A stretch of DNA of 20,707 nt from a virus. The position numbers and the translations under genes were made by a program. The stretch covers positions 1 to 20,707 of IMG/VR virus record IMGVR_UViG_3300030410_000037; one strand, given 5' to 3'. A model generated the notes under the pieces. It saw only the letters and a program-made list of their open reading frames with translations. It did no database searches and was not told the origin of the DNA. Below are positions 5,458 through 13,857 of this stretch, piece after piece (the first letter of the stretch is position 1; every line of letters starts with the position of its first letter).

Positions 5458-5507
5458 TTACTATCATTACTACTATTACTATTACTATTACTACTACTAC
5501 TACTACT
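5458..5507. repeat. TTA/CTA trinucleotide microsatellite
   Basis: This is a run of triplets made almost only of TTA and CTA, with one TCA near the start, ending in seven consecutive CTA units. It is a pyrimidine-adenine strand opposite a TAG/TAA-rich strand. In translation it gives polyleucine on the plus strand and poly-Ser/Asn or poly-Val/Ile on the minus strand, which explains several spurious open frames. It may serve as an easily melted segment, or it may vary in length by slippage. Confidence 0.8.
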
Positions 5508-5594
5508 CTCCAATGAAAACAGGGTGCCGAGGTCTGTAGTAAGACATCAAGCAAGGTTGTGCCGAAACCGGGGAAAACGTTGCTAGGCCATCCG

Positions 5595-5634
5595 GTATGT
5601 CGACAATGTTCCACGTGAAACAATCCCGACATAC
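5595..5634. promoter_or_regulatory. parS-like site inside a 40-bp compound palindrome
   Basis: The 16-mer TGTTCCACGTGAAACA (5607-5622) differs at one base from the bacterial chromosomal parS consensus TGTTTCACGTGAAACA, which ParB binds. It is flanked at equal distances of four bases by the inverted arms GTATGTCG (5595-5602) and CGACATAC (5627-5634). Both palindromes share exactly the same centre. A further CGACATAC lies at 5198-5205. No parA or parB gene is in the window, so either host ParB or a phage protein encoded elsewhere would bind. The motif is seen directly; the function is inferred. Confidence 0.65.
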
Positions 5635-5941: not shown

Positions 5942-7945
5942 ATGTGTGTCATGTCCACCGCCATAAAACCTCACCATGACCGAACCACGGCAGAACTCGT
6001 GCTAGACCTTCAATCCAACCGGGTGCTGGCGAACTCGCTTCTGTTCCAGCACCGACACACCGACGAAGATGCGCCGTTCCATGCCCGCATGATCCGGGCG
6101 ATGACCAGCCACTTGCCGCAGGTGCTGATCAAAGCGTTCCGGGGGTCGGCCAAGTCGACCACGGCCGAAGAGGTGCTGATCACCGGCGCCGCGTTTCAGG
6201 ACTATCAGTTCGGGCTGGTGGTAGGCAATACCTATGAAAGCGCCGTCATGCGACTCGCGTCGGTCAAGCGGGAACTGGCCTACAACGAAAAGCTGCTCAC
6301 CATGTTCGGCAGCATGGAGGGCGAGAAGTGGGGCGAAGACGTGATCATCTTGGCCAACGGGGTGCGGTTGCAGGCGCTCGGCCGGAACCAGAGCACTCGG
6401 GGTTTGAAGGAAAGCGTGCGCAACATGCGCCCCGACTTCGTGCTGCTCGACGACTTGGAGGACGTCGACGATGTGAAGAGCCCCGAGAGCCGGAACAAGA
6501 ATTGGCAGTGGTACACCCGGGAGCTGTACCCGGCACTCGACCCGAAGGCGCGGCTGCGCATGGTCGGTACACCGCTGCATGATGACAGCATGGTCGAGCG
6601 GGCCGCGGCGTCGAAGGACTGGCGCACGCTGACGATCCCGCTCTACACGCTCGACGGTGCCGGGGAAATCGTGAGCAACTGGCCCAGCCGGTTCCCGGTC
6701 GAAGCGATCCTGAAGATACGGGATGCGTTCGCAGAGGCAGGGGACTTGGCCGGCTTCAGCCAAGAGTACCTGTGCAAGCCGCTCGACCACATCGCCAAGA
6801 CGTTTCAGGAGGGCGACATCCTGATCAACCCGGGGACCAGTACATTCGCGCCGCGCACGCTGATCGTCGACCCGGCGCGTACGACGAAGGCGACCAGCTC
6901 GCGCACCGGCTACGTGGTGACGTCATGGGTGGGCAGCAAGCTGATCGTGCACGACGCGCTCGGCGCGTTCCACAGCCCCAGCGAGCAGGTGGCCAAGATA
7001 TTCGAGCTCAATGACGCGCACCACCCCATGACCGTGGCGGTAGAAGCCAACGGGTTGGAAGAGTGGCTGATGCAGCCGCTGCGGGCAGGCATGACGCAGC
7101 GTGGTACCACCATGCCGCTGCAGGCGATCCGGGCGCCCAACGACAAGAAGCAGTTCATTGCCGGCCTGCAGCCGTTCTTCAAGGCGCACGAGGTCGAGTT
7201 CGCATCACCGCTGCCCGACCTGAAGCAAGAACTGATGTCGTTTCCCTACGGCAAGCTCGACATCATCAACGCGCTGGCCTACGCGGTGCGGTTGCGGCCC
7301 GGTGCGCCGGTCTACCCGAACTTCCAGCAGCACCACGTCCAGCACTTCCTTCCCAGCGCGCGTGCGAGCCTGTGGCTGGCCTTGAACGGGTCGGCCGGCA
7401 TGCTGGTGTCGGTGCTCGTGGCGATCGAGGACGGCGGCATCCACATCCTCAACGACTGGGTGCGGGAAGGGCCCATGGACGACTGCTTGCAGATGGTCGA
7501 GATGGACTTGAACTCACTGCCGACGTACACCCGGCGCCCGCAGATCATGCTGCCCATGGAGCGCGGGCAGGCGCAGGACCACGCCGGCATCGGCAACGCG
7601 CTGCGGCGCAACCGGCTGGGGTTCCGGGAAGGCAAGCGGATCAACGAAGCGTTGGAGTCGCTGACCGAGCCGCTGCGTACGACGATGGCGCAACGTCCGA
7701 TGTTCACGGTCAGCCCCGAGGCGACGTGGAGCCTGAACGCGTTCGCCGGGGGCTATGCACGCGACGTCACCGGGCGCGACATGCTGGTGATGCGCCCGCA
7801 GGACAACATCCACGCGACGGTGGCGCAGGCCACCGAGGTGCTGACCGCGACACTCGACCCGCGGCGGATGTTCGAGCTGGACAGCGACGGCCCCGGCATG
7901 ACGATCGGGCACAACGGACGACCTTACCGGAGCATGATGAGATGA
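5942..7945 (+). CDS. terL: Terminase large subunit (packaging ATPase and nuclease) with an extra C-terminal RNase H-like segment
   Basis: The protein has 667 residues; many large terminases have about 450-550. The ATPase shows Walker A in FRGSAKST (66-73), Walker B in FVLLDDLED (166-174) and the coupling motif MVGTP (208-211 GTP core). The nuclease shows LIVDPARTT with D310, VAVEANG with E369 and KLDIINALAYAV with D440. After it, residues 475-635 look like a second copy of the same fold: LALNG (N482), GGIHILNDW, LPMERG (E540) and PQDNIHATVAQATEV (D621). It drives DNA into the prohead through the portal. The start may be ATG 5942 or ATG 5951; neither has a clear SD. No small terminase gene is adjacent. 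Its TGA overlaps the ATG of the lipoprotein gene. Confidence 0.92.
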   Translation: MCVMSTAIKPHHDRTTAELVLDLQSNRVLANSLLFQHRHTDEDAPFHARMIRAMTSHLPQVLIKAFRGSAKSTTAEEVLITGAAFQDYQFGLVVGNTYESAVMRLASVKRELAYNEKLLTMFGSMEGEKWGEDVIILANGVRLQALGRNQSTRGLKESVRNMRPDFVLLDDLEDVDDVKSPESRNKNWQWYTRELYPALDPKARLRMVGTPLHDDSMVERAAASKDWRTLTIPLYTLDGAGEIVSNWPSRFPVEAILKIRDAFAEAGDLAGFSQEYLCKPLDHIAKTFQEGDILINPGTSTFAPRTLIVDPARTTKATSSRTGYVVTSWVGSKLIVHDALGAFHSPSEQVAKIFELNDAHHPMTVAVEANGLEEWLMQPLRAGMTQRGTTMPLQAIRAPNDKKQFIAGLQPFFKAHEVEFASPLPDLKQELMSFPYGKLDIINALAYAVRLRPGAPVYPNFQQHHVQHFLPSARASLWLALNGSAGMLVSVLVAIEDGGIHILNDWVREGPMDDCLQMVEMDLNSLPTYTRRPQIMLPMERGQAQDHAGIGNALRRNRLGFREGKRINEALESLTEPLRTTMAQRPMFTVSPEATWSLNAFAGGYARDVTGRDMLVMRPQDNIHATVAQATEVLTATLDPRRMFELDSDGPGMTIGHNGRPYRSMMR

Positions 7946-11261: not shown

Positions 11262-12008
11262 ATGTCAGCACCAGACGACGATTTTGAATTCGACCCCGAC
11301 CAGCCCGAAGGCGAGCCCGGTGAGCCTGAAGAGGAACTGCCCGAAGGGGCGGAACCCGACGAGGAACAGCCTGAGCCCGATGAACCGGAAGGCGAGCCCG
11401 AGCCGAAGACAGATGACCCGGAGCCAGCGATTCGGCAAAGCCGCGCGCAGGCACGCATCCGCGCACAGCAGGAGGAACTTCGAACAGCTCGCGCTGCAGT
11501 CGAAGAAGCCCGTGGCGCAACACAGCGTGTCAACGCGGAACTTGAGCAGATTCGCAATGGGGAAGCACAGCGACGCAATGCCGCAATGCTTGAATCTCTG
11601 GAACCTGAAGAGCGCGCCCGCGTTATGCAGGACCAGCGGATGCAGGACTTGCAGCGGCAACTCAATGCGACCCAGTGGCAGATGCAGGAATCAGCCGACC
11701 GTACCGCGTTCGTGGCCCGTGCAGCGTCAGACCCCGTGGTCAAGCGCTACGCCGACCGAGTGGAAGCCCAACTGGCGAATATGCGCCGGCAAGGCAACAC
11801 CGCTCCGCGAGAAAACGTGCTGAAGTTCCTGATTGGCGAGGACGTGCTTGCAAAAAGTTCGAAGGCCGGCACCCAGCAACGGGCAGCAGGCAAAGGACGT
11901 GCTACGGCCGCCGCAGGCACTCCGCCCCGCTCGCGCAGCAATGCGTCAGGGGGCGACGGTGAATCACTCGACGCGCTCGAAGCACGGTTGGCAGGACGTT
12001 CATTTTAA
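11262..12008 (+). CDS. Scaffolding protein
   Basis: The protein has 248 residues. The first 55 or so are extremely acidic and proline-rich (repeated E-P-D-E, as in PDQPEGEPGEPEEELPEG). A predicted coiled coil follows (about 60-140, QARIRAQQEELRTARAAVEE and similar), then a basic, Gly/Ala/Ser-rich tail and a short C-terminal helix, ESLDALEARLAG. An acidic start, central coiled coil and basic helical end, placed directly before the coat gene, are typical of phage scaffolds, which direct prohead assembly and then leave. The SD AGGAAAG stands ahead of ATG 11262. The coat gene starts 12 bases downstream. Confidence 0.8.
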   Translation: MSAPDDDFEFDPDQPEGEPGEPEEELPEGAEPDEEQPEPDEPEGEPEPKTDDPEPAIRQSRAQARIRAQQEELRTARAAVEEARGATQRVNAELEQIRNGEAQRRNAAMLESLEPEERARVMQDQRMQDLQRQLNATQWQMQESADRTAFVARAASDPVVKRYADRVEAQLANMRRQGNTAPRENVLKFLIGEDVLAKSSKAGTQQRAAGKGRATAAAGTPPRSRSNASGGDGESLDALEARLAGRSF

Positions 12009-12020
12009 TCGGAGCCTACC

Positions 12021-13358
12021 GTGGCAATCAACAACGCAAGCAATTTCTCGGCTGACGTCGGCAAGTACATCCAGAAGAAAACTCTGGAACTGACCCAACT
12101 GCAGCTCGTTCTCTCGCAATTCGGTGAAAAAACGCCCCTGCCCAATGGCATGGGCACGACCTACAACGCGTTTCGTTATGAGCGCGTGCCCCTTCCCTTC
12201 ACGACCCTGAGTGAAGGCGTCGCACCTGCAGGCCAAACCATGACGATCACGCAAGTGACCGGCGCGGTGGCTCAGTGGGGCGACCTGATCCGCGTCACCG
12301 ACGTGGCTGTGCTGACGATCTACCACCCTGTGTTCAAGAAAGCGATCGAGCTCGCTTCCATAGCTGTCGCGGAGACGATCGAACGCAACACCTTCAACGC
12401 CGTTCTCGGCGGCACGCAGGTGAACTACGTCAACACCCGCGGCGCGCGCGCCGCACTGTTGGCCGGCGACGTGCTCAACCCCCACGAAGTGAACCGTGCC
12501 CTCTCGGCATTGAACACGCTGGGGGCGCGCGCCTACCGCTCGACCGACGGTGCTGACGAGAAGATGAAGCCAGCATCGGGCGCCAAGGGCGTGTCGGTGG
12601 CGAACCAGCCTCACTTCATTGCCGTGATCCACCCCAACGTGGAAAGCGACATGCGGGAAAACCCGACAATCGTGACCGCGTGGAGCTACAGCGACATCGC
12701 CAAGCTCTACAACTCGGAAATCGGCCAGTGGTCGCAAATCCGGTTCACGCGCTCGAACATGGTGCCCTACTGGGTCGGTGTCGCCCAAGTGACTGGCACG
12801 GCCGGCACCGCAGGTTCGCTGGCGACCGCAGGCTATTTCGTGCAGGTGACGGGTTCCCTGACCCAGAACGGCTACGAAGCACTCGTGGCGCAGGTGTCGG
12901 GCTCGATCGCAGTGACCGGCCCGACCGGCTCGATCAGCGTGACGGTGCCGTCGACCCCCGGATACACCTATTCGGTGTACGTCGGAACCACGGCGAACCC
13001 AGTCAATTTGGGAACGTCGAGCGCCGGCCCGACCTCTGGCCCGCAAGCCGGACAAGCGACCCAGCTTGCCCCCGGCTCGACGGCAGTGATCACTGGCATC
13101 GGCGCTGCGCAGGTTCCACCGGCAGCCCCTGCCGCCGGCGTGACGGTCTACCCGACCTTCATTTTCGGCAAGGAAGCGTTCGTGCAGTTGGAACTCGACT
13201 CGCTGAAGACGGCCTATCTCGACAAGGCCGACAAGTCTGACCCGAACAACCAGACGCGCGTGGTTTCGTGGAAGGTCTTCTACGGCACGATGATCATGAA
13301 CAACAAATTCTTCATGCGCATCGAATCGTCGTCGGCTTTCAGCTCGACCTTCGGCTAA
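12021..13358 (+). CDS. Major capsid protein, N4-gp56 family, with an inserted beta-rich segment
   Basis: The protein has 445 residues with GTG start 12021 and SD GGAG six bases upstream. The N-terminal part, with FGEKTPLPNGMGTTYNAFRY, then TLSEGVAPAGQTMTITQVTG, then WGDLIRVTDVAVLTIYHPV and ETIERNTFNAVLGG, matches the N4-gp56 major capsid family. Later blocks include HFIAVIHPNVESDMRENP and WSYSDIAKLYNSEIGQW. Residues about 255-373 break the family pattern with a Gly/Thr/Ser-rich beta-like stretch (GSISVTVPSTPGYTYSVYVG), resembling an Ig or fibronectin type III fold. The core returns with VYPTFIFGKEAFVQLELDSL and WKVFYGTMIMNNKFFMRIES. A hairpin lies just after the stop, fitting a highly expressed structural gene. 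Confidence 0.88.
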   Translation: MAINNASNFSADVGKYIQKKTLELTQLQLVLSQFGEKTPLPNGMGTTYNAFRYERVPLPFTTLSEGVAPAGQTMTITQVTGAVAQWGDLIRVTDVAVLTIYHPVFKKAIELASIAVAETIERNTFNAVLGGTQVNYVNTRGARAALLAGDVLNPHEVNRALSALNTLGARAYRSTDGADEKMKPASGAKGVSVANQPHFIAVIHPNVESDMRENPTIVTAWSYSDIAKLYNSEIGQWSQIRFTRSNMVPYWVGVAQVTGTAGTAGSLATAGYFVQVTGSLTQNGYEALVAQVSGSIAVTGPTGSISVTVPSTPGYTYSVYVGTTANPVNLGTSSAGPTSGPQAGQATQLAPGSTAVITGIGAAQVPPAAPAAGVTVYPTFIFGKEAFVQLELDSLKTAYLDKADKSDPNNQTRVVSWKVFYGTMIMNNKFFMRIESSSAFSSTFG

Positions 13359-13370
13359 TAGCCGACTGAG

Positions 13371-13400
13371 GGGCTGGGGTTTCACGTGAAACCTCGGCCC
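13371..13400 (+). terminator. Hairpin after the capsid gene, containing a perfect parS core
   Basis: GGGCTGGGGTTTCAC pairs with GTGAAACCTCGGCCC over 15 positions, with two G-U type pairs, leaving a tight loop at the CACGTG centre. The 3' side runs into TTCCCTCATTTTC, a poor T-tract, so it may be a weak terminator or a transcript-end stabiliser. The centre GGTTTCACGTGAAACC (13378-13393) is a perfect 16-bp DNA palindrome whose inner 14 bases equal the core of bacterial parS. Both roles are possible. Confidence 0.6.
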
Positions 13401-13428
13401 TTCCCTCATTTTCACCACCGGAGTTTCC

Positions 13429-13857
13429 ATGTCCAATCTCGATGACGAACTGAATGCCGCCCTCGGCGTCCCCGGCACCACACCGATGCCCGAAAACGTC
13501 CCTGAAGAAACGATCGCCGCGACGCTGCACAAGCCATCCAAGTCGCGCAGCAAGGCGGAACAGGCGCTCTACGACACGATCAAAGAGCAGGTGCTGGGCG
13601 ACCTCATCAAAGAGACAAAGAGCAAAACCGCCGCGGTAGCCGCGCCGGAACTCGTGGAATTCTTCGTCAACCTGCCAGTGCATGCTGGCATGATCCGGAT
13701 CGACGGCCGTGAGTATTACCACGGCTTCACCTACAAAATTCGTGCAGACCAGCGCGCGAGCTTGGCGGACATCGCCGGCAAGGCATGGGCTCACGACGAA
13801 GAGGTTCGCGGTCAGCGCAAACCCTTCGATTCGTACCGCCTTACCCGCGGTCTTTGA
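13429..13857 (+). CDS. Hypothetical virion-region protein, 142 aa
   Basis: The protein begins MSNLDDELNAALGVPGTTPM with SD GGAG before ATG 13429. The first 60 residues are polar and probably flexible, with a helix SKAEQALYDTIKEQVLGDLI. The second half is compact and beta-rich (ELVEFFVNLPVHAGMIRIDG, REYYHGFTYKIRADQ) and ends with a helix and PFDSYRLTRGL. Genes of this size between coat and adaptor can encode head decoration or completion proteins, but no family is recognised. Confidence 0.7.
   Translation: MSNLDDELNAALGVPGTTPMPENVPEETIAATLHKPSKSRSKAEQALYDTIKEQVLGDLIKETKSKTAAVAAPELVEFFVNLPVHAGMIRIDGREYYHGFTYKIRADQRASLADIAGKAWAHDEEVRGQRKPFDSYRLTRGL

Follow-up and report, generated by a model that had tools for sequence, protein, structure and literature searches.

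The window analysed here, i.e., the whole stretch of 20,707 nt corresponding to positions 1 to 20,707 of the IMG/VR virus record IMGVR_UViG_3300030410_000037, is an incomplete genome. Its virion operon includes the major capsid protein gene (12021..13358, plus strand; PHROG 1357), followed by a gene for a 142-aa protein (13429..13857, plus strand). Further upstream, a non-coding control region separates minus-strand genes from the terminase large subunit gene (5942..7945, plus strand; PHROG 38), the first gene past this region. Among named phages, only distant relatives of the capsid, portal and terminase proteins were found, and the host call by similarity therefore failed; in IMG/VR, searches with the terminase and with the 142-aa protein found no relatives. 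Sigma-70-like promoters were not in excess in the window.

Two parS-type palindromes

Intergenic DNA makes up 10.5% of the window, and both parS sites described below fall within it. Bacteria use parS to label their own chromosomes for segregation. Site 1 (TGTTCCACGTGAAACA, 5607..5622) lies in the control region that precedes the terminase gene and is a perfect parS, agreeing with TGTTNCACGTGAAACA at 16 of 16 positions. Site 2 (GGTTTCACGTGAAACC, 13378..13393) lies behind the capsid gene; it is a perfect 16-base palindrome, among the two longest of the window, with the exact 14-base core GTTTCACGTGAAAC at 13379-13392. Both sites agree exactly with the 14-base palindrome GTTNCACGTGNAAC, which we used as the criterion for a chromosome-type parS. 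Structural work on ParB (PMC7383237) uses TGTTTCACGTGAAACA as the consensus parS, and the contacts that confer specificity fall inside the 14-bp site. In site 2, the outermost bases are G..C, which is less usual: among 76 parS from Burkholderiales chromosomes (the order of the candidate host, see below), two have G..C, while 45 have T..A.

A first-pass annotation of this DNA had already reported the exact core at 13378-13393 and placed a second site about 7.8 kb away, one of the two being in the control region and the other in the virion operon. Sequence and coordinates were confirmed, and the distance between the sites (5607-5622 and 13378-13393) is 7771 bases. Chance, against which that annotation proposed to weigh the motif, provides next to nothing: 0.0004 copies of GTTYCACGTGRAAC are expected in the window under a first-order Markov model, and 2 are seen. 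Sites with one to three mismatches to parS were not found in the window, so the two perfect parS stand without a background of partial ones. The central hexamer CACGTG occurs only 2 times against 11.4 expected, each copy being within a full parS. It is also the most depleted palindromic hexamer in the window and its relatives (L002-L033) taken together, with 10 copies seen against 148 expected, and this depletion might reflect restriction avoidance. CACGTG is apparently low also in the sequence examined from a metagenome-assembled genome (MAG), with 4 copies seen against 13 expected.

Site 1 is bracketed by a further inverted repeat, GTATGTCG ... CGACATAC (5595..5633), whose fold as single-stranded DNA has a z of -2.6. 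In the nearest relative (L002), the heptamer ACATACA is found 15 times on either strand in 19.5 kb against 0.7 expected, mainly in the non-coding control region (L002:2676-4216); in the window, a copy of ACATACA at 5629 and the inverted GTATGTCG at 5595 flank site 1. The same control region contains a run of ACT/ATT triplets (5460-5510), about 100 bases ahead of site 1.

The hairpin behind the capsid gene

Nine bases past the capsid stop begins the stem of an RNA hairpin (13368..13403, plus strand) composed of 16 pairs, three of them G-U, with the loop ACGU at 13384-13387 and site 2 at its tip. The earlier statement that the palindrome forms the tip of a transcript hairpin holds well: the RNA fold reaches -29.9 kcal/mol (z -3.3), and none of 200 shuffled sequences was equally stable. 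It is the longest stem among the 13 terminator-like matches of the window, a class without excess as such (14.7 in shuffles). As a stable GC-rich stem after a gene, the hairpin resembles an intrinsic terminator, while the T run on its 3' side is weak (CCTCATTTTC, 13404-13413); one clade of relatives has TTTCTTT. From these features, we would regard the hairpin as terminator-like or as a stabiliser of the 3' end. In T7, the transcription terminator T-phi follows the major capsid gene. Like T-phi, the hairpin described here is GC-rich and located directly past the capsid stop, a setting also found in most relatives; unlike T-phi, it has a weak T run, and its stem tip and loop are a parS.

A search of IMG/VR with the capsid protein yielded 33 loci with 51-80% identity, the nearest relative being L002 with 80%. 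Most relatives with readable sequence have a clear hairpin behind the capsid gene, usually 10-17 bases past the stop; these are a large group (L004-L017, L032 and L033) as well as L003, L018 and L020-L022. The hairpin is located further downstream of the capsid stop in L027-L029, several shorter stems follow the capsid gene in L002, and no convincing hairpin was found behind this gene in L023-L025, L030 and L031. In one clade, an A-U pair is replaced by G-C through changes on both sides, retaining the stem; this is a single varying pair and, thus, modest evidence.

None of the post-capsid hairpins in the readable relatives contains CACGTG, and GTTNCACGTGNAAC was absent from all 20 relative records, the position of site 1 included. 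Such a distribution indicates that the hairpin is an old conserved element, while parS appears, on this comparison of sequences, to be a gain of this phage at both places, acquired after its split from the known relatives. Conservation, accordingly, supports neither site within this lineage. The first-pass annotation held that relatives keeping the hairpin with an altered CACGTG would leave only the RNA structure as meaningful. Relatives do keep it without CACGTG, which confirms that the hairpin is independent of parS. The further step, that parS is idle in this phage, does not follow from the missing hexamer, because the relatives lack parS everywhere and the nearest of them is only 80% identical. 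The spaced set of loading sites suggested by that annotation comprises two sites in the 20.7 kb of the window; since the contigs of relatives reach 46.6 kb, the full set of parS in this phage may be larger.

Candidate host and possible role of the sites

No ParB_N domain was found in the window, which is a fragment, or in the 20 relative records, including contigs of 36-46.6 kb; control genomes gave positive results in this search, as expected. Only two of the capsid relatives are borne on bacterial genomes. Both are 54-55% identical; one lies in a MAG of the Burkholderiales and the other in a beta-proteobacterial MAG. Judging from these capsid relatives binned in two MAGs, rather than from the phage itself, the host is probably a Burkholderiales bacterium. 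In the Burkholderiales MAG, GTTTCACGTGGAAC and GTTTCACGTGAAAC stand between a trmE-like gene and a gidA-like one, with parA- and parB-like genes further downstream; the gene order on its contig C19, with genes named by eye from translations, is dnaA-like, trmE-like, two parS 200 bases apart, gidA-, gidB-, parA- and parB-like. The motif was found in 78 of 80 genomes of the same order, in one to six copies each, with cores identical to those of the phage sites. Thus, with no ParB_N found and the motif lying upstream of parAB in the candidate host, the host ParB is the natural candidate to bind the phage sites, and, by their sequence, both are likely true parS for the host chromosomal ParB. The resemblance to the chromosomal arrangement (trmE - parS - gidA - gidB - parA - parB) extends to symmetric flanks, found there as well; unlike on the chromosome, no parA or parB was found near the phage sites.

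Phages that carry parS-type sites are not new. Extrachromosomal prophages such as P1, N15 and those of some mycobacteriophages have their own parABS, with their own ParB and their own sites. The phage described here shares parS-type sites with them, but no ParB was found in the available fragment.

A closer parallel is provided by the Bacillus phage phi29, whose genome contains four perfect parS (TGTTTCACGTGGAACA). One of them (L240:17243-17258) starts directly after the stop of gene 16, and only four bases separate its end from the annotated terminators of converging genes. Both phi29 and the phage of the window are small tailed phages with two or more perfect host-type parS on the genome. 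In phi29, one parS is placed after the last virion gene and ahead of the terminators, while site 2 lies within the hairpin stem and not beside it. A role for Spo0J in trapping phi29 DNA in spores was described by Meijer et al. 2005, as cited in PMC9437464; in that case, ParB of the host reportedly acts on the phage genome. The two phages are also unrelated, and the capsid relatives suggest a non-sporulating beta-proteobacterial host in our case; therefore, entrapment in spores would not be the purpose here. Beyond phi29 and Spo0J, our literature search for phage-borne parS read by a host ParB found nothing among the papers covered.

Such evidence induces us to favour, with some confidence, a scenario in which the phage gained two true parS for the host ParB, one of them fused into an older post-capsid hairpin. 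The phage, which apparently encodes no ParB, would have acquired both sites after its split from the known relatives, and site 2 would have become part of the stem and loop of the hairpin that this phage group keeps. A single palindrome would then have two uses: in double-stranded DNA, it would be bound by ParB, and in the transcript, it would form the tip of a 3'-end or partial-terminator hairpin. At both sites, ParB of the host would be loaded as a CTP clamp, slide outwards and label the phage genome as chromosome-like; host ParA (or SMC) might then place or retain this genome, or the lytic cycle might be deferred, as reported for phi29 and Spo0J. The parts of this scenario differ in strength. 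The sequence part, comprising the sites, their excess over chance and the hairpins, is strong. Loading of ParB at the two sites is likely; the identity of the host, a role of the hairpin in the transcript and a benefit to the phage are what we infer. That the purpose is to retain or place the genome or to defer the lytic cycle, as in phi29, is a reasoned guess. The two jobs ascribed to one palindrome by the first-pass annotation find partial support: two parS far beyond chance are present, one of them in a real post-capsid hairpin with counterparts in relatives, and hairpins at the same place in those relatives give the RNA part a standing of its own, but the relatives' hairpins lack parS.

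One alternative is that the hairpin alone matters, being an ordinary terminator or RNA stabiliser behind the capsid gene with an accidentally parS-like tip. The relatives speak for it, as their hairpins mostly stand 10-17 bases past the capsid stop without CACGTG and the stem of one clade survived a two-sided change from A-U to G-C. However, the ACGT of the core forms the unpaired loop in RNA, so folding alone does not require it, and the probability that a given stem tip would match the half-site is about 1e-4 or less; taken together, the free loop and this low probability mean that the hairpin does not account for the parS match. Nor would it explain why another perfect parS is present at 5607 and any further CACGTG is absent, and we consider an accidental tip improbable. 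If the sites are indeed bound by the host ParB, they could instead act as decoys, pulling ParB off the chromosomal centromere, so that infection would disturb the segregation or the cell cycle of the host. This reading draws on the same sequence evidence as the favoured one, and replication would presumably turn two sites per genome into many. Still, two per genome are few, and the phi29 precedent is one of retention instead, making a decoy function unlikely in our view.

It is equally hard to give much weight to the idea that the sites are operators, serving a phage regulator or another host regulator with the same palindrome, or a ParB-like protein encoded in the missing half of the genome. 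The position of site 1 in a control region and inside a further inverted repeat would suit an operator, and the contig is incomplete. On the other side, the 36-46.6 kb contigs of relatives have neither a ParB_N domain nor such sites, sigma-70-like promoters are not in excess, and the motif is identical to the parS found in the order of the candidate host.

Should host-ParB parS gained by the phage be the right explanation, its novelty would lie in a phi29-type case in a different host group and in a palindrome with two jobs. Phages of ordinary non-sporulating bacteria would be seen to exploit the chromosome segregation of their hosts, a case so far made mainly for phi29 and sporulation, and the hairpin site would illustrate clearly how one palindrome can load a protein as DNA and form a structure as RNA.

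parS in other viral contigs

The exact 16-mer of site 2 was found in 83 stretches of IMG/VR, while two control palindromes designed likewise, each four-fold degenerate through its Y and R positions, were found in 23 and 14. For TGTTYCACGTGRAACA, at least 120 stretches of viral contigs were counted. Among 50 larger viral records with the motif, 48 had no ParB_N match; the viral status of these records is the call of IMG/VR, and host segments among them are possible. Of the viral parS, 49% are located outside ORFs of at least 100 aa, compared with 9% for controls (P = 0.0001), and this share is 26% for viral parS with the outer bases G..C.

Stems extending beyond the 14-mer were compared with re-paired flanks. 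At least five further pairs were seen in 18 of 278 distinct viral parS against 4.8 expected, and at least eight in five of the 278 against 0.44 expected. The chromosomes showed an excess as well, with at least five further pairs in 10 of the 76 Burkholderiales parS against 1.7 expected. We had considered long stems around parS as a phage peculiarity, and for moderate stems this idea was dropped in view of the excess at these 76 chromosomal sites: moderate symmetry around parS is general and is no proof of use as a terminator, and it is the long stems alone that stand out. Stems of at least seven further pairs were found at six of 278 viral and none of 76 host sites, numbers too small to conclude from. 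Site 2 itself has 11 further pairs, while the maximum among the 76 host sites is six. Some of the long-stem viral parS look terminator-like.

It is tempting to suppose that many phages without their own ParB, including those of non-sporulating hosts, carry host-type parS for the ParB, ParA or SMC of their hosts, and that the palindrome was repeatedly built into terminator or 3'-end hairpins, the same stretch being used both as DNA and as RNA. We offer this extension as a tentative one, which may well turn out otherwise. If the favoured account is right, parS without parB would be a simple, testable sequence mark for finding phages that exploit host segregation in metagenomes.

Several individual contigs also deserve a comment. 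In L278, a near-perfect terminator tipped with parS (GAGGAGGTTTCACGTGAAACCTCCTCTTTTC, L278:13299-13329) lies between converging genes, 1.6 kb past a T4-type capsid gene, and L109, L274 and L047 resemble it. The 18.1-kb viral contig L050 contains six copies of GTTTCACGTGAAAC arranged as three close pairs, and no ParB_N domain was found in it. In the viral contig L342, parS at 11271 and 11886 are about 600 bases apart, each within a long inverted repeat.
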